This document shows, piece after piece, positions 13,875 to 64,000 of a DNA stretch of 64,000 nucleotides. A program made the translations under genes and the position numbers. This stretch comes from Scatophagus argus (taxonomy: Eukaryota > Chordata > Actinopteri > Scatophagidae). The notes under the pieces are model-generated. The model saw only the letters and a list, made by a program, of their open reading frames with translations, was not told the DNA's origin and searched no databases. The first letter of the stretch is position 1, and every line of letters starts with the position of its first letter. The DNA lies in the NCBI RefSeq assembly GCF_020382885.2, contig NC_058513.1, forward strand, positions 9,767,774-9,831,773, read 5' to 3'.

Positions 13875-22826
<8,952 letters not shown>

Positions 22827-50080: not shown

Positions 50081-53000
50081 ATGAAGTGTAAAGTCCTAGT
50101 CTATGTCGCCTTCCTGACTCTCATGAAGAATGGTGAGTGTCTTTACATACACACAGGCTGCACTGTTGTTTCTTCACCTAATAAACAGGTTTGCGCTGAT
50201 GAGGTGAAATTGGAGATATTTACTCTCAGTTATCTCCGATGGACTGAAATTTGAAAGCTTGTAACAGACAGTTTTCACAGAATAGCCAATCAGTTAGTTT
50301 GTGTTGATCCTACTGAGTTAACCGTACACGTACAGCTGGTGCATGTCGGTCATTTTCCGAAATGTAGGAGGTAAGATGCTTCTGATCTCTACTTTGTGCT
50401 TTGTGTTGATTTATGGTAACTTTCAGAGTCAGCTCCCCCTTCGTGGCTGTATTAGCCTTTGTGACTGTATTCAAATCAATGCATAGGACTGTTTCACATC
50501 ATTATTGGATTTACGGAACTATTGCATTAATGTAATGAGGTCCTGTGATTTGTCACATGTTTGTTTCAGCCAAAACTGCGCATTTAAACCTGGCTATTAT
50601 ACAAAATGTCTCCAGATTAAATTTATAGAAAATGTACAGTGTTACAATGCATATCATGACTTATGATATTGCAGTGTAAAATATAGCCATAAATCCCTAA
50701 AGTCTAATAATATTCATATGCACTGAGAATAATAATAAAAAAAACCCTGCTGTTTACAGCTGCACTGCCAGTGCTTATTTAGAATGGCTTAAATGGCCTT
50801 ATACATCAGGTGGCACACATCTTCTTTGTTTACCTGACCTATGTTATCATTTTGATTTGACTATGTGCACTTTTGTAGTCAAAAATAGACACAAATGAAA
50901 ACAGAGCATTCATGTCATTTAAAGCTCTTGGTTTTTTCCTACCTCTAAACCTGCTTTGATCCGCCCATCTGTCACACTTAATAAATACACTTCACACAAA
51001 GCAAGTTTACAAGTTCTTGGTTCTATGCCTGAGGGTATTTATTGTACTAGTTACTAATTAAGCTGATTGGGCGACCAAACCTGAATGAAAAGCTTTATAT
51101 GTACACTCATTCAAGGGGGTATACTGAGATTATTGATTTACGATTAGGGGTGAAAAGAAAGAATGTGCAGTGGAAAGTTTCATGAGACTCAAACCCCCAG
51201 CACAACAGTGTTTGTTCAGGTATTTTTGCATGTTCCAAGTGGAAGAGAAAGATTCTTCTTTTGAAAGAAGACATGACACAATGTAATGCAATGTTATGTA
51301 AGCTAGCCTTTAGTGTTACCCTTGACTCAGATTATGAAAGTTTAATAGCAAAAATATACTGAATTCAAATACAAATATTTTGTCGTCCTTTTCCTTCAAC
51401 AGAAATGTATTTTAAATTAAAACTGCAGTTGAACATCAGACTCAAACAGTAAGCTAATATTACAGGCTCATTTCACAGACCTGTCTGTGTTGTACTAAAT
51501 AGCATCAGTGAGTGAGTAAAAGCTCTTCATTTTCTCTCCATCTAAACTTCTTCTTTTCTGCTTGCAGTGTCTCCAAGTGACATTCAGGCCAGCCCAAATA
51601 CAAATGCAACCTTCCCCTGTAATGTGACGTTCCCTGTTGCTTTGAAGAGGGACAAAGTAGACATGTCTCTCATCAAAGCCAGCTGGAGGAGTAACGGCTC
51701 TGACATTGCCTCATTCAGTAAAGCATCAGAACAAATAACAGAAGGCTTCAGCTGGGACACCAGAGATTTCATCAATGGGGACTTTTCACTGACCGTCCTC
51801 AGGGCCAGTCTTGACCTGCAGGGGGTGTATGAATGCACAGTCAGCTACAACTCCACAATGCAGCACTCCAGTAACGTTACATTTAGCATCCTCTGTAAGT
51901 CTTTGTTCAGTCGTTGAGATTTGATTTGGGGTTTAAGTGTCCATTTGAACGCAAAAGAATAAACAAAGCTTCTACTTGTCCCCTCTTTAGCTTCCCCTGC
52001 TCTCTCAGTCCCTCAGCAGTGGGTTGTGTTGGAAAGAGACAGCCAGCTTAAATGCCACGCATATGGCTACTACCCTCCTCCTGTGTCTTTCTCGTGGACC
52101 AGAAACGGGCAAGTGATTCAGCCTCCCTATCACACTGAAGGTGAACGGACTCCAGATGGGTACTACATGGCCATCGGCAACCTGACCTTCTATCCTTCCC
52201 GTCAGGACCAGAATGTGACCTTTGGCTGCAAAGTTTCACACAGTGGCAGTGATCAGGAGCTGGATTTCCGACTCAATATCACCTGTGAGTGGCTCAACAA
52301 CACAGCACATTAAAGGTCGCAAAGGTCTCTTTCATGTAGAACTAGCATGACTACTTCTGTCAATCATTATAAGACTGAGAACCAAAAGATTTTATTTTGT
52401 TTACTGTCTTTATTTCTCAGATCTCCCTATTGTTAGACTTTCAGCCTTGCCCTCACAGTCCAAAAACATCCCTCTCACGCTTTACTGTGATGTGGAGAGT
52501 TTCTATCCAGAGGAAGTGTCTGTGTCCTGGCTTCAAAATGGCACACTTCTCCCTGAGCCACCTGCCACTCAGCAAAACCCAGACGGGACCTACAGAAGCA
52601 GACGTTTTCATACTTTGAGCTCCCAGCAAAGAGAACAAGGTGGCAAAGTTGAGTGTGCAATAAATCAGCCTGGAGTTGTGCATCCAGTCAGTGCCTCAGC
52701 ATACCTAGAAAAACTGGATCCTCAAGGTAAAATCTAAATTAATTACCTGCATTATCTGTGAGAACAAGACACTCTACAGTTTAAACCTTATGTTCAAACA
52801 GTCTGTGAGTCATTCAACTAATAAAAGAACAAGTCAGCTTCTTTATGCCTAGGCTAAATATTGTTGTGCTATTCCTGTAGGCAGCTGCACTGTTGTAACC
52901 TGTTCCTCTTGTTCTTGGTGCTTTGTCAATGCTGCCTTTTATGGTTTATCACTCTTTGTAAACTCAGATGAACCTCCGGTGTTGACTAAATCAGCCAAAG

Positions 53001-56000
53001 CATCTGTGGCCATGATGTGTATTTCTCTGGTGCTGGTCTTCCTGCTCTGCTTTGGCTTTTCTTGGAGGAGGAGGGATGGTGAGTCAGACCCTTTAAATGA
53101 AATAAAGCCCGGTTTGTGACACTCATCACGGAGAATGACCTAAGGGTGGAAAATGGCAACTTTTTCATTTTGAAATGATCTTATTTGGCTTTTGAGAGAA
53201 GAAAAAACTATATTTCACAAGAAAAAAGTCAAACCTGGCAGAAAGATTAAAATATACAGAATATAAATGTTTTCTTTCTTATCCTTTAAATTCTGACCAG
53301 TTATGTATGCCAGGACATATACAGATATTAAAAACATAAGCAAATAAAGTTTCCAGTAAAAACAGATGCATTGTCGTAGTTTCAGTTCTCCAAGCTGTAA
53401 GCACACACTGAATTTTGGAAACACTTGGTCCAACATATTATAGCCTTTAATTATTGCACAATAACTGCCATGTCAGTTTCCCTTCTCTTTCACTGACTTT
53501 TTTATCTCCATTCTTTCTCTTCTCACTCAGAGAAACAGAAGTCTCTGAATGTTTCAGGGATCATCCTCCCTCCACGTGTGACTGTAGGCCAAAAGGGCAG
53601 GGTGACAGTAAGCATTGAGGGCAGGAGGGTAGACCGAGTCCTGACTGCATGGTTCCTCAATGACACCCCGATCTCTGACACTTCACTGACAGGTAGAAGA
53701 GCTCACACACACACTGACATAACCAGGTTATTGTGAATAAGTCTTTGACCACACAGGGCTGGATCAGGCCAATATAGTTTTAAATTTTAGTGGATATCAC
53801 AAAATTTACAAAACACCACTCTGTATTGTATACACCAAAGCAGAAATACAGCTGTTGTGTAAACAGTGACTTCTGAGGTGACTGTAAGCTTGTTAATCAA
53901 CCAGTGGAGACACCAGTAGCTGGCAGTTGGAATTTGTTGCCTTTGGACAGCACAAAGTTAGTTGTGTTTCCGATTGTTGTGCTATGCTAAACTAAATGAC
54001 TGCTGGTTATTGTTTCACAACAACTCAATTAGAGCTACTTTAAGGGAAATGAAAAGGAGGAACTGGATATTAGATGTTTATTAAACATTTTTGAAACATG
54101 CTGTTCATGGTGCATTATGGGAAGAATATGAGCCAGCATGTACACCATGTATGTTGGAGCTTGAATCTAATAAGACTCTAAATTTCTGAATATCTGGAAC
54201 TGTGCTGAATTGATAATTAACTTTCTATTGTTGAACTTGTGGGGGGAAAAAAAACAAACTTTTGTGTTTTCTCTTTTACACTTAATTCTGCTAACAATTT
54301 ACAATCTTACACACATAGGAACATCCACAGCTAACTTTAACTGTCTCTATAACCCCTTAACCACCATCCATCTGCCCTACGGTCTAACTCTCACCTCCCC
54401 AGTATCAGAGAAAGGTCCTCTGCTGCCCTCCAGAGGCGAGATGGGTTACTACAAGCTGCACACGCAGGGGCCGCTGCACTCATCTGGAAGTGACACTCAA
54501 CAGCTGATCTCCTCCCTCACCTTCATCCCTCAGATTTCTCTCCACAAGGGGGCGGTGTTTAAATGTCAGGTGTCCTACGCAGGCAAAGACAAGATTGTGG
54601 TGGAGAAGGTGTCAGAAAAGTTTACAATTCTGTGTAAGAAAAGATGTCCTCTTATTTACTTTGCTGCTGCTTTTCTATGATTTCTTTTTTAAGTTTTTAA
54701 AATTTTGTCTTTTTTTAAAAAAAAAAATGTTTTTAAAAACTTTGTCTTTTAGCTGCTCCAGAAGTATCAGAAATTCAGCTGGCAGAGACACAAAATGACT
54801 CCAGTAAGTCAAACAGTTTATGTCTCTACTATGGTTAAATACATGTAACATTTTTGGTTTTGTGTGAAGCCACATCCCTGTAATTTCTGTCTTCCAGATG
54901 TCATCAGTATGACTGTCAAGGCATCACATTTTCATCCTGATGTCATTACCTTCCGCTGGTTCTGCCAGGGGGGTGAGCTGAGCCCTGTGGCTTCCCAGGC
55001 TTCATCCTCACCTCGACCCAATTCTGAAGGCTTGTTTTCAGCCTACAGTCAATGTAAACTGCCCCTGAGTGAACTGGAAAAGGGAAGCACAAAAGTGTGG
55101 GTCAGTGTCCACCACATTTCCCTGAAGCAACCGATCACTCGTGAGACCACAGGTGAGACAGAGGGGAAGTAAGGCATAAAATTTAATGGTGCATAATAAT
55201 AAGTGCTTAATTCCCTTTTTATCTCAAATAGGCTTCATCAAGAGGCCATGTGTATCTGAAATCGTCAGCTCCGCTGCTTCCCCAGGTCAGACTTTGACCT
55301 TGGGATGTGAAATCACAGATTTCTACCCTCCAAACATATCTGTCACCTGGCTGAAGCTCAGAGAGGGAGAGCAAGATGACCGAGAGGAGGAGGTGATAGA
55401 GGGAGGAGAGATGTGGGGCCCCATACAGACTCATTCCAGACTCTACAGGGCCACAGCCGCACTGACAAGAAGGGCAACACATCAAGAGAAAAAGGAGCGT
55501 GGAGGAGGGCTTATATGTAGAGTGGAGCACTGTTCCCTAGCTGAGCCTATTGAGAGACACTGGAGAAATGGTGACATAGGTGTGAATCATTATAGTCACT
55601 TTTACTGTCGATAGATTACTCTTTTTGATTTTATCCACACAATATGGAGGATATTCCTACAACATCAATACAAAAAAATTATACAAGTTCATATGCTTTA
55701 ATGCTTTTTCATTCAATTGCACTTTCTGTTTGCGTTCCTTTAGTTGCTCCCTCCATTCCTGCATCGATCTCAGTGTGTTGGAGCAGTGAAGGAGTTGGTG
55801 TGTTCTCTCTCCTGTTGAAGGGAGGTCACCCTAAGGTCAAACTACTCTGGGCAGCGGGAGGACTCAATCTCTCGCCACTGGTGTCCAATGAGACAGAGGA
55901 GATAGGAGATGATGGACAGAGGGAGCTGAAAAGTGTGTGCGCCCTGGAGAGGTCCACAAGCCCGCCAAGTCAAACAAGTAAACAGCTGGAGAGACAGAAG

Positions 56001-56913
56001 AACGGACATGCAATAAGTACTTGTCCTTTATATATACATGTATATAGACGCATGGCAGGGCTGTTCCACTGGTCACACGCCTGATGCATTTCCAAAAGAG
56101 TTTTTTTCTTTAGTCTTTAAAAAGTGAGTAACATTTGCGAAAAGTTTGAGGTGAAACAGTGATTTAGTGCATTCAAACACCAAATCCCATTCATCTAAGC
56201 CACAGAACTTGTTTCAAAATGTCGGAAAACATTTCACAAAACATTGCTAAATTGTTTGTAGTATTTAAAGAAGAACTCCAATAATTTTAATGTTCACTCT
56301 GCAAAAACTATTGTGTTGTGTTTCTCTTGTAAACTCTGGTCGTAATCTTCTTCTTTTTTATTTACTGCTGTTGCTTCACAGAAACAAAAGCTGCTGTCAC
56401 AGACCCTGACGCTGAGGGAATAGAATACATTGACGAAAAAGTGGATGGAGAGAATAACAACATTGACAGGGACGAGGAAACAACATCAGAGGCGGATGAG
56501 GATAGCAACAAAGAGAGGGAGGAAGACCCCAGCGCTCTGCACATCAACAGAGTCAACTTGAAGAAGGGTCCCAGAGAAAATGAGAGAGCGCGTCTGAGAG
56601 TCTGTGTGGAGATCACACACCCTGCACTCAAGCTTCCTGTTTACAGAACCTGGACAGGTAAGTCATTGCAAACGGATCACTACTGTAGAATCAGTTTCTC
56701 AAATTAACATCTTAGTGGTAGTGAATTAATTGATACAGCATAACATCCAAATGGCGTTTTTAAGCACACATGCAAATTAAAGAGTGTGTCATGAAAAACC
56801 TCTCACTAAGGCCGTGAAAGATTACAGAGAAGTGAACTGTCATTTTGTTGGTTCGTTTTTCAACTCCATCTTGTGTCCTTTTTTCAGAGCCCAATGAGGA
56901 AATTTCATCTTAA
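50081..56913 (+). CDS. Ig-superfamily membrane protein with Ig-like domains on both sides of the transmembrane exon
   Basis: 931 aa from 13 exons, every internal junction in phase 1: 50081-50132 (signal peptide), 51568-51894, 51991-52284, 52421-52726, 52968-53078, 53531-53692, 54319-54633, 54753-54803, 54898-55152, 55232-55579, 55744-56016, 56382-56657, 56888-56913. Exon 2 encodes a V-like domain (FPCNVTFP...GVYECTVSY). Exons 3 and 4 encode two C1-like domains (LKCHAYGYYPP; LYCDVESFYPEEVSVSW). Exon 5 encodes a helix (VAMMCISLVLVFLLCFGF) followed by WRRRDEK, a stop-transfer signal. Unexpectedly, further Ig-like segments follow: exons 6-7, exons 8-9 (cysteines lost), exon 10 (LGCEITDFYPPNISVTW with a paired Cys), and exons 11-12, split by an acidic insert. 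The front half recalls SIRP or tapasin (V-C1-C1). I do not recognise the whole protein, and no ligand can be named. Two genes cannot be fully excluded. Confidence 0.78.
50133..51567. other. first intron of the Ig-superfamily gene
   Basis: 1.4-kb AT-rich intron between the signal-peptide exon and the V-like exon. No other feature is recognised. Confidence 0.6.
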
Positions 56914-58784
56914 GCGTGAAACTGCTGATGCATGCAGGAGTGCCTCTCTATTTCATATATCCCTTACAGTATAATATATCTAATACTCTGTATGTCTGTG
57001 AAGTTAGTATTCATGTTTTTTGGATATCCAGGTGTGGTGTGGTTTTGCTTCCAACATTTCTGGTCTTTATTTATTACTTTATATTCTTAATCTGTCATCC
57101 ATTTTTTTTTTTCAAACTGCACGATTTTTACAAATGTTTTCATATTTTTGTACAAAGAATTTTACAATAACAATCCAGGTATTTGGATTCTTTTCTAAAT
57201 CTGCGCTGGAAAATAAAATCTACATTTTGTGAAGAGATGTCTCTTTTTGTTTTGTTTTGGATTTTGTTTTTGTCTATGAAAACTGAATCGGCAGTCACTG
57301 TTGGTTGTTGGTCACTAAGTTCCATTTGGTGTTCTGACATTTGTTGTTCGATAAGTTCTCGCTTCAATACAGTACTTCTGTTTTTCTTGTTTGCTCTCCG
57401 ACCACAGAAGTGTCACTTCACTATGCTATGCAGTGGAGGTGCTGAGTGGTTGAAATGAGTAATCAAGATGTCATTTAGTTAAGAGCTTCCTCCTGTGAGA
57501 TGATACAGCAAGGGCTTTTGTCATGGCTGCCCAATGTCGACAAATGGAAACATACGTGTTGTAGAATACAGTTTTTGTTCCTTTTACATGAAATTAGGCT
57601 TGTGTGTTTTGACAAAATTCTAACAATTTTCCTGTATATTGCATTCAATATTGCACAAGATAAGGGACAGCATCTGAAAAAACGTATAGGCCACATAAAA
57701 ACTGAGTAATAATGATTGCAGTATATGTGACATATGGGGGAGAATAAATATTGAATAAATAAAAATAGAAACTAAATACAAAAGACAGGATCAATTACAT
57801 ATAAAGCTTAGAGTGAGTCTACGTGGGTGGCAACAGGGAGCAATTGTAGCGTGCAATGTTGTTCAGTTATTAAAATGTATTCTAAATGTTAACGCTAAAA
57901 GTGCTGTTAAAAGGGTTCTCCGCCCATTTAACATTGCAAAACCAAAGAGATGATCTTTTTTTGTTCCACACATCCTTCCTCTTGCCAAAGCTTGGTGGCT
58001 ACTTCACCCACAATTAAAGTCACAACTTCTGTTGGACTAGCACTTGTTGCCTTTGCTTGTTGTTGGCATCCTCTGTGTGTGTGTGTGTGTTTAGGACTGC
58101 ACATTCAGACATAAAAAAGCAGGCAACAAAGTTTTAATTTATTGCTTTTTAACCCCACAGCTACTAGACCTTGTTTTGTTTTTTTAAAGGGACACTGACT
58201 CACGTGACATCGAGGTAATTAGTCAGTCTTTGCGCAGCTGCCTCCAGCCACAAAAGCCTTTCACGGGTTTTGATCGATTCATATGAAATGTGCTTAACAT
58301 ATATATCAAAATTAAGATCTGTTTGCTTTATGTTGTTGTTTTTTATTTTTTTAATTCACAGACTGTGCAAAAATGAGTCAGAGCTCCTGGTGTTTTTGTA
58401 ACATGTTACTGATGAATATGCGGTGGGAAAGCGGAAACACACGTATCACACATCAACTCACGAACCATCATCACACACAGACACACACTTGTTGGCTTAA
58501 TTTGGCCTGTCTGAAGCTCTGCGCACATCCGCAAACTGTGCAACACGTAGACTTGATGCACCGGCGACTCAGCTGTGTTAATCACACTCTTCCTGATCAT
58601 GAAAGATCGGACAGCAGCACGGGGAACTGAAGTGGACGTGCTGAAATCTGGTCGCGTTTGGAGGGAGCTTACCGTCCACTTTCTGATTTACCTTAGATTA
58701 TCAGATAAGCTCATTTGATTTGTGAGCACATCCACAGGTAATTAAATCTGATGGTCAGAGAATCGGGGAGGAGGAAGTTTGAAG
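56914..58784. other. 3' UTR of the Ig gene and promoter region of the acidic-protein gene
   Basis: AATAAA at 57212-57217 is a likely poly(A) site for the Ig gene. A (TG)n run occurs at about 58074-58092. The right part, around 58350-58784, is less AT-rich and probably contains the promoter and 5' UTR of the next gene. No coding exon is supported between. Confidence 0.45.
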
Positions 58785-61700
58785 ATGGACAACGACAGTC
58801 CCGTGTCCAGGGTGGAGAGGACTTTTTGGACAGTTTGGGTGAGCATCATCTCAAAACAAATGTGCACTGATACATTAGATTTAGTTTTTAATTTTAGAGG
58901 CTGTGAGATGTGGATGTAAGGTCTCATTTTTCATGTGTCCTTCACCTCCTCCTCCTCTCACACCACAAGGCAGCATGAAGTCTCTCTCTCTCTCTCCCTC
59001 TCCCCCCCTCTCCCTCTCTCTCTCTCTCTCTCTCCCTCTCCCCCCCCCCTCCCTCTCTCTCTCTCTCTCTCCCTCCCTCCCTCCGCCTCCCCTTGTCTGT
59101 GTTTTTGTTTACCTTGGCTGCTCTCTCTAGTCATCATTCACTGATTGTGGGAAATTTATTTTTCATTTATGTTGAATTGCAAATTTGCCTGTCGGACTTT
59201 TTTTTTCTTTTTTGTTTGGTTTTTTTTTTTTTTTTTTTTTTTGCATTTTCAGCCGGCTTTAGCAGTTTAACAGTGTCTAGCAACCCTCCTAAGAAATTAT
59301 TAAGAATTTGTAGGTCCATGAACTAAAACGTTATTGATTGATTTTTCTTTTTCTTTTTTTTTTGATCTCAGCCACAAGTATGGTGAGGTTTAGCATTAGT
59401 GAGGTTTTGTACTGATGATGAACAACAAGGTCTGGCTCGTGTATGGTGTTTCAGACCCTTTTCACAATAAATAGTTTTGCCTGATGAAACTAAGAACATC
59501 AGTGTTGAATATATTACATTTAGAGGTTCAAGTGTCATGTCCCTGCTTTTGCTGCAGGCTGGGTCACTTGGAGGACTTACAGTACTTAATGCTGACAACT
59601 GTTCATATCAATGTTTTTATATTTACAACAGATCAATTGTTGTGCTTTTACAGCTGCAACTTTACCGTTTTGATTTCTTTCACTGATCTCATCAACTTTG
59701 TTTCCAGATGTCCTGGTAGATGTTTTTAGAGGGGGGGGGGGGGCGATAAAATCACCTGATAACCAGACCAAACTTTCAGAGGAAACCGGGTTAATTATGC
59801 ATTGTACATTGGAGCAGCTCTATAGCCTGTCAAGATCTACCACACCAAACTCAGGAAATGAACCTGGCTTTGTGCGCGAGGGCATTGAAACAGGAAAGGG
59901 CTTTCCCAATAATGTTTCTGCAAAGCTTTGAGGGCATTATTGTGTAAATAGCCTTGTATGATGTAACAATAAGATTTCCCTTAACTGGACATCTTAACAA
60001 AGACAGCAAATGTACATGGAATGCATAATAATAAAAAAGATAATTGTATAAGAAATGAGAACATACATAGAACAAATGTGCAGTCAATTATGGAAATAAA
60101 CAAGTCAAAAAGTCTCTGAAAAAAGCCTTTTTTTTTCTCTCCATCTCATTCTCAGTACTATATAACTGGAGCAGTCAACAGATTCCTCAGTCCAGACCCC
60201 ACTAACACTGTTAGAAATGAGTCAGACTCCTTCCAGGATTCTGCAGCTGACAGTGAGCCTGCAAACTGTGGCCATGCAGAGGGTAATGCTGGTGAAATGG
60301 AAGTCGTGGGGGAACTGCCTCTTGCAACAGTCTCTGTGGTTAGCTCATCTCAGCCACTTGTTGCTTGGGAGCTTCCCACCACAGACATTGACTTAGGGCC
60401 CGATGAAGAAAGAGTGCAGTTCAAAACCCAGCTGAGCAGAGGCAGTGAAGGCAAAGCATCTGATGAAGCTGAGGACATGACAGAAGAACAGTTTGCCCTA
60501 ACAGGAAATGATGGAGCAGGACTGCTCATCCCTGAAGATGCAAAAGAAAACAAAGAAGAAGAAAATGGGGCTCAGATATTGTCCACTCATAGACTAGATG
60601 AGATGCAGGAGAATGATGAGTATGAAGAACATATGAGCACCAGGTCTTCAGGACTTACAGGTGATGCAGTGAATGAAGATGTGGAGGAAAGAGGAAGACA
60701 AGCCGTTGCTGAGGAGGAGATGACACCAAATGATCGACAAAAAATGGATGAGAACTTAACAAAGATTGAAACAGAAGAAGAGGATAAAATGCTTCATGAA
60801 GATGAACAAGATTTGAAGGCAGAAGACGTTGAGGTAAAATTATGCACAGTCACGACTTTCAGTCTAGAAGAGGGTGGAGTGCACATAGAAGAGGCAAAGG
60901 TGCAGAGAGACATGGCAGATACAGCAGTGAAGCACGAGGGGGTAGAAGAAACCGATGGTGCATTACTGCTGGCCTCTGAGAATGAAAACAAGTCTGATGA
61001 GAGAACAAGACAAGCTGAAAATCAACTCATAGTGTGTGAAGATTTGGCAGATTATGACAGAGATATCCAGGAAAACCAAAGCTTTACATCATTACACGCT
61101 GAGTTACAAATGGACAAAAGTCCATTTGAAAGCACATTGGATGAGAGGGAGCAGGGTGTCATCACTGAGGAAAAAAAGGGAAGTGAGGCTGCAAACCAAA
61201 CAACAGATGAAATGCCAGCCCAGGAGGACAACATCAAATCAGTTACAGAAGGTCAAGAAGAAGACATTTCAACCAGACATGTCACAGTCGGTGAAGAATT
61301 CATGCAGAATGCTCTAACAGAGCTCCACCCTGTTGAATTCACAGTTGGAGAACAGGAGGGTGTGGCTAAGGACACAGGCGTACAAACCAAGGCAAGAGAG
61401 ACAGATGATGTTAAAACAGAAAGCCATGGCGAAGTGATCGAGGGAAACGTTTACATGACAACAGGAAACATTTCTGTAGATGAGAAATTTATTGATAAAG
61501 ATCAAGTAGAAGCTGAGCGACTTCTCAGTGAAAGAGATGGCAAAGAAAGTTACATGGAAGTAGCATGTACAGCCACCTCAGTTACAGTAAAACCTGAAGG
61601 CGAGACTGGTCAGGAAATAAGTGGAGAGTTTAAAAATACTCCCCCAGGGATTTGTGAAGGCCAGTTTGTTGTGTCGCAGGAGCTAAATTCTCCAGCATAT

Positions 61701-63893
61701 GAGGAAACACAAGAGGGAGTTCCTGAATACAACAATGAACCAGGGCCAGATGAAAATACAACACAAAGGTTCCTGGAAGAAGGAGATTGCAAGGAAATCC
61801 AGAACACGCAATTACCAGAAGAGGTGGAGAGCAAAGAGCTGGAGAGCTTTCAAAACAGCGACTGTGGCAGTGGAGCTGACTTTTTACTCGTGAGGGAGCA
61901 TATAGAAGAGGAACAAGAACGCACAGAAGATATTAAGAACAGCTTTGAGTTGGTGGTGGAGCAGGACACTGGAATACTGCATCTCACTGATGCTGGATTG
62001 TCAGAAGAAGGAGAAACACCACTTGCTGAACCAGTAATTCAAGGATCAGGACTTTTATTTGAGGAAGAGAAAGGACATTTATTGGTTGACTCAATGAAAG
62101 CGGTGATTGAACACTCAGAAAAAGAGTCTGAGATGCACATGGGATTAACAGATGAGACTGATGCAACAACAAAACTGCTGCGGGATGAGACTGAAGAGAT
62201 TGTGGTTGAGAAAGATGAGCTGTTATGTGATATCAAAGAAGCTGATGGTGCTGGAGATCACCAGGAGATGACAGGAGCCATAGCAGCAGAGGAAGTGGTC
62301 GGATTGGTTGATGGAACTTCAAAATTTCCAAAGGCTGAAGTGCAGAAGATAACAGAGACACACAGGGAGAGGGAAGATATTATAAACTCAGAGCAAAACA
62401 GCTGCAGGACATCAAGTTTAGTAGAAGACATTACTGAATCTGGATTCCTGAAACAGTTGGTTGAGAGTGAGCCTAAATTACCAGAGGATATTGCTGTAGA
62501 AATGCAAGATGCATCGATAGATATGGAGAAATCACATCACAGAGTTGAGAAGGAAGCAGCAGAATATGAAGTGCAGAACAAAAATGAGATTGAAATTTTA
62601 AACCTGCAGTTAGCAGAAATGGCAGCTGGACCAACTACAGAAAGGAATGAAAAAGAAAACACTTTGACTGCAGAATCTGAGTCACCAGGCACTCAAAATC
62701 AACTGTCAGCAGAATCACTTGAAATAAGCAACAAGGAGACTGAAGCATCTGGTCAATCAGTGACAAGTGACTCCGAACCAAACGATTTGACTGCGATATC
62801 AGAAGAAGAAATATCAAAACCTGTGACAGAATCAGAGGGGAGTTACGCTGAAGGATCAGTGAGCCTAGTCGGCGGACATCAGGATGTGATTGATGAAGAA
62901 ATCCTTGACTTGTGGATACAGACAGCGTTGTCGGAGGACACTGATGGCACAAAACAAGAAGGCCCTGAGCCTGGACAACAGATGGACAGAGAAATAGAGC
63001 CATCTAAGGAGGAACAAAATGAAACGTCATCAGTGCAGACAGAGAAGGATAAAGAGCAGCTTGAGGAGTCCAATTCAGGGGAATCTGAGTTAGTGAGTGA
63101 CCCAGAGATGTCTTCATCAGCAGGAGAGTCTGGGTTTTTGGACAAGTCTCCCTGGGAATGGGGTGCTCAGAACAATGAAACTCAGCTTTTGACATCATCT
63201 AGCACTGGGTCAATTCAAGGCGTATGCGACATGTTGTCTAATATGTCAGAATCCACAGACATCTCTGAACTGTCGACACACCGATCTAACTCTGAATCTC
63301 AGGAGATCTTGATGGAGGAAGCCACTGAGACAGTACAGTCAAACCTGAAAGAGGAGGAATCAGTCCCTGAGACAGGATCTCATCATCATAATTCAGGAGT
63401 TACATCATCAGAGGCAAGCCATCTCGATCAAGACCTAGATACATTGCGAGACGACACAGAAGAAGAAACTGGATCGAAGAAGGAGACTAATGCTGAGGTA
63501 ACAGACCTTGCAATGAAAACCAGCTGGAAAGATACTGTAGAAGCAGGTGCTAAGTCACTGACAGAGATGAGTACCCTTTTAAAAGCTGAAGAAATTGAAG
63601 TGGAAGATGAGCCTCTTGAAATGACTGTGTCGGACTCTCCGGAGGGAACGGAGCACACTGACTCAGGATGCTCTAGAAGTGGCTCAGAAGCTTCGTTAAA
63701 GGAGGAAATTTTATCAACAGATTCTGGATCACAAGACGGCAGCTGCACTGAATCAGAGAAGGAGTTACTGAAGTTGCCCACACTGGAGAAACCACAGACT
63801 GAACAGTCAGAAGATGATATTGATTTATTAGCTGGCCTAAATAAGGCTGAGGTGACAGAGGAGCTGACAACAGAGGCTGAAGATCAGTTGGAG
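58785..63893 (+). CDS. large acidic protein, 5' part (possibly apolipoprotein B receptor-like)
   Basis: Two exons in the window: 58785-58838 (MDNDSPVSRVERTFWTVW, GTGAGC donor) and 60156-63893, joined in phase 0, for 1264 residues. The first 35 or so residues look structured (WTVWYYITGAVNRFLSP). The rest is a low-complexity chain very rich in Glu, Asp, Ser and Thr, without cysteine pattern, signal peptide or clear internal repeat, so it is probably disordered. The large exon ends at DQLE with a GTACTG donor at 63894; reading through would stop at 63911 after only five more residues, so more exons probably follow outside the window. A short aromatic head followed by a giant Glu-rich exon is the style of apolipoprotein B receptor (APOBR), whose human gene lies near VKORC1, CD11 and ALDOA on 16p. 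The assignment is tentative. Confidence 0.7.
58839..60155. other. intron of the acidic-protein gene
   Basis: 1.3-kb intron containing a long CT/C-rich low-complexity block (58980-59092), a T-run (59219-59242) and a G-run near 59731. Short reading frames here are artefacts of these repeats. Confidence 0.65.
58980..59092. repeat. (CT)n / poly-pyrimidine low-complexity block
   Basis: Over 100 bases of almost pure C and T, with several CTCTCT runs separated by C-runs, on the plus strand of the intron. Confidence 0.95.
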
Positions 63894-64000
63894 GTACTGT
63901 TTCACATTTAACCTATTTATACATAATGCTTTATAAATTCACAAATACAAGCAGACGGTGTTACGGAGATGTTGTGAATTCAGCTGTTTTGGTCACTGCA
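63894..64000 (+). other. start of next intron of the acidic-protein gene
   Basis: GTACTG donor followed by AT-rich sequence up to the window edge. The alternative reading, a terminal exon with TAA at 63909-63911, is less likely but possible. Confidence 0.5.

Follow-up and report, generated by a model that had tools for sequence, protein, structure and literature searches.

A fish gene predicted to encode Ig-type domains on both sides of its only transmembrane helix, and a second gene built on the same plan

Closest described receptors and cytoplasmic Ig proteins

Antibodies, MHC molecules and tapasins are built from C1-type Ig domains, and the vertebrate domains of this type are, to our knowledge, extracellular or lumenal. 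SIRPalpha signals through tyrosine motifs, and SIRP tails either carry an ITIM (alpha) or are short and accompany a charged transmembrane (TM) segment (beta). We know of no SIRP with Ig domains beyond the TM segment, and of none placed there in the B7-H6, CD276 or tapasin-related TAPBPR families. Titin, MyBP-C and palladin have I-set rather than C1 domains and are not receptors with a mid-chain TM segment. An excerpt of a report on another receptor describes these three as cytoplasmic Ig proteins that bind cytoskeletal partners (PMC13133943), and an Ig location in the cytoplasm is what they would share with the tail proposed here.

The receptor of that excerpt is AjNLR-new, a sea cucumber membrane immune receptor whose intracellular Ig domain is reported to bind actin and recruit Fidgetin (PMC13133943). 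The gene presented here may be likened to it as a membrane immune receptor with (here predicted) intracellular Ig domains. The likeness is one of description, and AjNLR-new differs in its NACHT ectodomain, its topology and its echinoderm origin. Non-rearranging V-C1 genes, among them shark UrIg, are perhaps remnants of antigen-receptor precursors according to an excerpt that calls UrIg a non-rearranging shark antibody and mentions no mid-chain TM segment (PMC10751288). UrIg (PDB 9dmx, titled V-C1-C2-C3) and our gene both have several C1 domains per chain. In searches of open-licence papers, no title or abstract opening among those listed pointed to a receptor of vertebrates whose Ig domains follow the TM segment.

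The window, a 64,000-nucleotide stretch of contig C21 of the fish Scatophagus argus, contains a gene that is like the SIRPs in having a V-C1-C1 ectodomain followed by a TM segment. Unlike the SIRPs, it has no ITIM or ITSM in its tail and no charged residue inside the TM helix, and because its tail departs from the SIRP pattern we do not place it in the SIRP family. According to the gene model, Ig domains are encoded after the chain's only TM segment, as expected of a receptor with cytosolic Ig domains. In this respect it differs, as does a second gene on contig C3, from B7-H6 (NCR3LG1, 3pv6), CD276 and TAPBPR, which the C3 gene resembles in its V-C1 ectodomain. We read the window gene as a novel form within the B7/SIRP/tapasin-like group of V-C1 receptors, its Ig tail being putatively cytosolic. 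More specifically, we lean slightly towards a single gene for a type I receptor, with a B7/SIRP/tapasin-like V-C1-C1 ectodomain, one TM segment and a cytosolic tail of four tandem Ig-type domains.

Exon chain and domains of the window gene

Thirteen exons on the forward strand, spanning positions 50081-56913 of the window, splice into a single open frame of 903 codons with a stop at its end only. All 12 introns have GT-AG ends and all 12 are in phase 1. The predicted domain order, signal peptide-V-C1-C1-TM-Ig-C1-C1-Ig, with domains D1-D3 before the TM segment and D4-D7 after it, stands as read from gene models in one genome.

Exon 1 (50081-50132) supplies the start codon and, by inspection, a signal peptide (MKCKVLVYVAFLTLMKN). 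The V-type domain D1 is encoded by exon 2 (51568-51894; Pfam V-set 3.6e-8), and the C1-type domains D2 and D3 by exon 3 (51991-52284) and exon 4 (52421-52726); both score above the C1-set cut-off, D3 in a genome-wide search. Exon 5 (52968-53078), 111 nt long with phase 1-1 boundaries, encodes SVAMMCISLVLVFLLCFGFSWRRRD, a TM helix with a Kyte-Doolittle mean of 2.59 over 19 residues and an interior free of charged residues, followed by an RRR stop-transfer signal. The best hydropathy stretch outside exon 5 reaches only 1.39, and we therefore infer no second TM segment in the spliced window chain. Just within intron 5, at 53101-53106 on the forward strand, an AATAAA precedes the stop codon met when exon 5 is read through, marking a possible short-tail isoform.

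Downstream of the TM exon, D4 is divided between exon 6 (53531-53692) and exon 7 (54403-54633), and D5 starts in exon 8 (54753-54803) and is completed in exon 9 (54898-55152). Exon 10 (55232-55579) encodes the C1-type domain D6. The first part of D7 lies in exon 11 (55744-56016), an acidic insert and the last strands of D7 in exon 12 (56382-56657), and the C terminus and stop codon in exon 13 (56888-56913). A forward-strand AATAAA poly(A) signal follows at 57212-57217, ~300 nt 3' of the stop codon. The chain of a TM exon and eight further in-frame exons, proposed in an earlier reading of the sequence alone, is thus borne out, with 903 codons, phase 1 throughout and a single strong TM segment.

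The same sequence-only reading had proposed several Ig-like segments after the TM segment, and this holds in full for two of them. Pfam C1-set matches exon 10 at 4.9e-9 and exons 8-9 at 1.4e-4 (22.5 bits, cut-off 21), whereas the best match of exons 6-7 is Ig_2 at a non-significant 0.058 and exons 11-13 have no significant Pfam match, so that for D4 and D7 the term Ig-like rests on C-W-C spacing judged by eye. The genome-wide C1-set search recovers D2, D3 and D6; D5 is absent from its matches. Against solved structures, the first half of the protein matches an Ig heavy chain first, UrIg2 second and SIRPalpha eighth (2wng, over residues 87-309, 7.1e-11). The best matches of the post-TM half are Ig heavy chains (1.6e-9), with the SIRPs 2wng at 3e-8 and 4i2x at 4e-7. 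UrIg (9dmx) matches both halves, at 4.6e-13 and 1.3e-7.

Several features mark the post-TM exons as coding. Exons 6-13 provide 540 codons in one frame with no stop, where 2000 composition shuffles of these codons averaged 26.2 stops, the lowest count being 11. Codons before and after the TM segment have the same third-position GC, 0.53, compared with a GC of 0.345 in introns 6-12, and six of the seven exons from 6 to 12 have stops in both alternative frames. Splice donors were scored with a consensus built from general splice-site frequencies and ranked against all GT sites in the window. On this scale the exon 5 donor is strong (6.1 bits, 99.7th percentile), the donors of exons 5, 8, 9, 10 and 12 all reach at least the 96th percentile, and those of exons 6, 7 and 11 stand at the 93rd, 89th and 64th. 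The description of the splice sites as good GT-AG sites is therefore right as to the GT-AG ends of all introns and too generous for the exon 11 donor at 56016, which is weak (-3.6 bits).

A second gene with the same layout on contig C3

The assembly of the same fish (570.7 Mb in 48 contigs) was searched with the post-TM half of the window protein, and the best matches outside its own locus fell on contig C3, a different chromosome (E 0.12 and 0.18). The gene found there (C3:4204806-4209500) has the layout signal-V-C1-TM-Ig-C1-C1-stop, is in phase 1 throughout and encodes 615 residues. Its exons encode the signal peptide (C3:4204806-4204869), the V domain (C3:4204980-4205321), the C1 domain (C3:4205778-4206110), the TM segment (C3:4206206-4206325) and three post-TM domains, Da (C3:4206986-4207321), Db (C3:4208101-4208418) and Dc with the stop codon (C3:4209166-4209500). 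Pfam C1-set matches Db at 5.7e-11 and Dc at 2.5e-17, and Da is I-set-like, slightly under the Pfam cut-off. Third-position GC after the TM segment is 0.66, compared with 0.32-0.41 in the introns of this gene. Among solved structures, its V-C1 ectodomain matches CD276 best (2.1e-25), then B7-H6 (1.9e-19) and TAPBPR (4.8e-19), the latter two over almost its full length. Hydropathy of both spliced chains, that of the window gene and that of the C3 gene, shows no alternative TM segment. As far as gene models can tell, the C3 gene argues that the layout is genuine and inherited, and against two genes having been read as one.

The two proteins give one colinear alignment that runs from D3 (or the C1 domain of the C3 gene) through the TM segment into the tail, with 24.7% identity over 493 columns and an E of 5e-22 in a two-sequence comparison with no database correction. 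D3 and the C3 C1 domain are the closest pair of those compared (z ~20). When the three C3 tail domains were set against D4-D5-D6 in all six orders, the natural order scored best (140; next 129, others 79-105). Against D5-D6-D7 a non-natural order was slightly higher than the natural one (104 vs 95). Singly, the nearest domain to D4 is D2 (z 8) and to D5 an MHC domain (z 9.0, then C3 C1 8.0 and Db 7.5), D6 is about equally similar to C3 C1, MHC and Db, and Da has no special likeness to any domain compared. When the C3 ectodomain was searched against the genome, window D3 headed the matches beyond the C3 locus itself (E 0.0086), just ahead of one on C5 (0.0088). With the pre-TM half of the window protein as query, MHC-like loci on C23 come first (6.4e-6) and C3 later (0.0064); with the C3 tail, MHC-/Ig-like loci on C9 and C16 come ahead of window D2 (0.008) and D6 (0.49). 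From the alignment and the domain comparisons, common descent of the two genes is likely; homology of the tails is weak for each domain taken singly, and the register between them is ambiguous.

In the genome-wide C1-set search, 150 of 177 candidates were scored and 149 matches were listed. Among these 149, four places have at least three matches on one strand within 5 kb: the window on C21 (D2, D3 and D6), the C3 gene, one spot on C9, and C16 at 10.18-10.31 Mb. We take the C9 and C16 places to be MHC class II and IgH. This criterion is blind to genes with fewer C1-set hits. A candidate on C5 (C5:20205000-20211499) contains many Ig segments, one of them like the C3 C1 domain (7.5e-7), and its 6.5 kb show no trace of the post-TM Ig layout. 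Of 18 other C1 loci, five (L020, L022, L039, L042 and L048) gave no row; those read, in part, resemble MHC, beta-2-microglobulin and Ig constant exons. No relatives were found in viral contigs searched with three single domains or in prokaryotic contigs searched with one domain.

Side of the membrane and competing readings

The sequence-only reading had the post-TM Ig folds in the cytosol. The layout part of that claim is upheld above, and the side of the membrane can be approached through cysteines. Inspection by eye shows Val in D5 at the two canonical Cys positions, confirming that exons 8-9 lack the usual pair, D4 and D7 keep the F-strand Cys alone, and D6 has both, leaving the pair incomplete in three of the four window post-TM domains. 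In the C3 gene the pair is present, again by eye, in all three post-TM domains. The window tail has 8 cysteines outside complete canonical pairs, and the C3 tail has 9. For both genes together this is 17 in 878 post-TM residues, compared with 1 in 558 pre-TM residues (Fisher P 0.0025) and 1 in 847 residues of nine trimmed control C1 domains of the same genome that we take to be extracellular (P 1.4e-4). Three of the 17 are debatable, two as lone F-strand cysteines and one because it adjoins the C3 TM segment; without them 14 remain, with P 0.013 against the pre-TM residues and 0.001 against the nine controls.

The nine controls, of which L021 and L056 were trimmed, were picked from 19 rows derived from a motif that requires a Cys, a Trp and a later Cys; the other ten rows were omitted as incomplete, duplicate, V-like or probably intron-bearing. 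When the 12 complete distinct rows are used untrimmed, the controls have 11 unpaired cysteines in 1257 residues and P becomes 0.05, or 0.15 with 14. The excess in these untrimmed controls comes largely from two rows, L017 (4) and L056 (3), whose upstream parts, where these cysteines lie, are probably intron. The extra cysteines of the C3 tail might make further disulphides. Overall, the cysteine patterns appear to favour the cytosol for the post-TM domains, the unpaired-Cys part of this depending on how the controls are trimmed. Because the contrast weakens with untrimmed controls, we set our confidence in a cytosolic tail, and in the two-sided receptor family proposed below, slightly lower, and in skipping of the TM exon slightly higher.

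Glycosylation sequons do not separate the two sides. They occur at 13 of 22 Asn before the TM segment and 7 of 29 after it (P 0.02), the window tail having six (shuffle P 0.05). Their post-TM density of 0.80 per 100 residues equals the 0.83 of the nine extracellular controls, and sequons are thus uninformative on the side of the membrane. A low sequon count as proof of a cytosolic tail was dropped for this reason, the extracellular C1 controls being equally low. The same holds for the sequons of exon 10, which the earlier suggestion had weighed, along with its cysteine pair, for the lumen; the pair is there, and the exon has one sequon (NIS), not several.

A cytosolic location of D4-D7 is favoured in the gene models on the presumption that exon 5 is usually included, and the strong exon 5 donor and the RRR charges behind the helix support it. 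The main rival is alternative splicing, in which forms with exon 5 would end as a short-tailed receptor and forms with exons 6-13 would skip exon 5 and yield a secreted V-C1-C1-Ig4 protein, leaving no Ig domain in the cytosol. The length and phases of exon 5 mean that skipping it preserves the frame, as does skipping the TM exon of the C3 gene. Read-through of the exon 5 donor gives a short tail with the AATAAA close by, and in the C3 gene splicing to an acceptor 3' of the TM exon would give a tail of 12 residues (DLAQMEMTEVNP) and then a stop. The intact Cys pairs of every C3 post-TM domain and the control-like sequon density of the tails also suit a secreted chain. However, the exon 5 donor is among the strongest in the window, and short tails arise readily by chance, eight acceptors in intron 5 opening tails of 1 to 47 residues. 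The incomplete pairs of D4, D5 and D7 and the many unpaired cysteines would also be unusual in a secreted chain, an argument that is weaker with untrimmed controls. We regard this splicing alternative as unlikely without being negligible.

Two other readings deny that the tail belongs to the receptor at all. The sequence-only reading had offered two adjacent or fused genes as its alternative, that is, a V-C1-C1-TM receptor and a separate Ig-domain gene read as one. The TM segment does complete an ordinary receptor unit, and with phase 1 throughout, neighbours could be joined by splicing on paper. Against this, exons 5 and 6 are only 452 bases apart, exon 6 begins at a splice acceptor, and intron 5 contains no ATG-led signal-like peptide, its longest ATG frame being 25 residues and non-hydrophobic by eye. 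The layout also recurs in the C3 gene, which makes a local fusion or misreading unlikely, since a chance gene neighbourhood would be needed twice. We rejected the two-gene reading on these grounds and give it little credence. It is very improbable that exons 6-13 are a dying duplicate, untranslated in the main product. The poor Ig matches of D4 and D7 and the weak exon 11 donor would fit such decay, but the 540 stop-free codons (~26 stops expected by chance), the coding-like third-position GC and the C1-set matches of D5 and D6 speak against it.

Returning to the receptor with a cytosolic Ig tail, signalling through tyrosines is unlikely because neither ITIM, ITSM nor YxxM motifs occur in the window tail. 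The ectodomain may bind a ligand on another cell, and the tail could then serve as a rigid docking rod of several domains, using its beta-sheet surfaces to bind partners in the cytosol or one another. Docking on engagement of the ectodomain would replace ITIM/ITAM phosphorylation, by analogy with muscle Ig proteins and AjNLR-new. A wider proposal, which we hold tentatively and think somewhat more apt to fail than to hold, is that the window and C3 genes represent an old, hitherto undescribed vertebrate family of two-sided Ig receptors, with an antibody-like ectodomain, a docking tail of tandem C1-type domains that operates in the reducing cytosol and does not use tyrosines, and a mid-chain TM segment older than the duplication that separated them. 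If true, a conserved receptor with a cytosolic C1 array would be a new route of immune-receptor signalling and a natural example of C1 domains losing their disulphide. If TM-exon skipping is true instead, the gene would alternate between a receptor in the membrane and a long, antibody-like protein that is secreted.

The acidic insert of D7 is long, and the end of exon 11 just ahead of it offers an in-frame choice of donors. Use of the site at 55977 (0.5 bits), which scores better than that at 56016, would make the chain 13 residues shorter and keep the frame.

Surroundings of the window gene

Trypsin-like serine protease exons were recognized by reading as four nearly identical tandem copies at 15666-21684 of the window (+ strand). 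Additional trypsin-like exons occupy 21964-22823, and others are encoded by the - strand between 44231 and 45543; Pfam Trypsin was matched in two pieces that were tested. The neighbours found within 5178-45543 include a protein kinase, presumably MAP-kinase-like, VKOR, a VWA-domain gene that we take to be integrin-alpha-like, and aldolase. The set is reminiscent of human 16p11.2, where no gene of the window-gene kind is known.

Next on the 3' side of the window gene comes one uninterrupted reading frame, 1263 codons long (60120-63908, + strand). Its codons from 60234 onward gave no match in a search of solved structures and nothing significant in Pfam. Within the window gene itself, the last Ig-type segment is divided by a long acidic stretch, EGIEYIDEKVDGENNNIDRDEETTSEADEDSNKEREEDPS (exon 12, about 56411-56533), in which CK2-like sites are present.

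The similarly organized gene on contig C3

The surroundings of the C3 gene were covered by loci L032-L035 and L029 (C3:4182000-4231999). A kinase frame, which we assume to be TP53RK-like, precedes the gene, and frames close to it are presumably SLC2A10-like and SERINC-like; this neighbourhood resembles human 20q13. An acceptor 3' of the transmembrane exon (L029, 4465-4503) leads into a 12-residue tail, DLAQMEMTEVNP, followed by a stop; this tail could represent a short-tail isoform.

Other Ig loci in the genome

At L070 (C5:20205000-20211499) Ig-like segments lie in a row with numerous sequons, and one segment is similar to the C1 domain of the C3 gene (7.5e-7). The genome-wide C1-set search detected a 128-kb array of ten C1-set exons with identical scores (C17:1578465-1706082, - strand). 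This array may have expanded recently, or it may be a segment that the assembly repeats.
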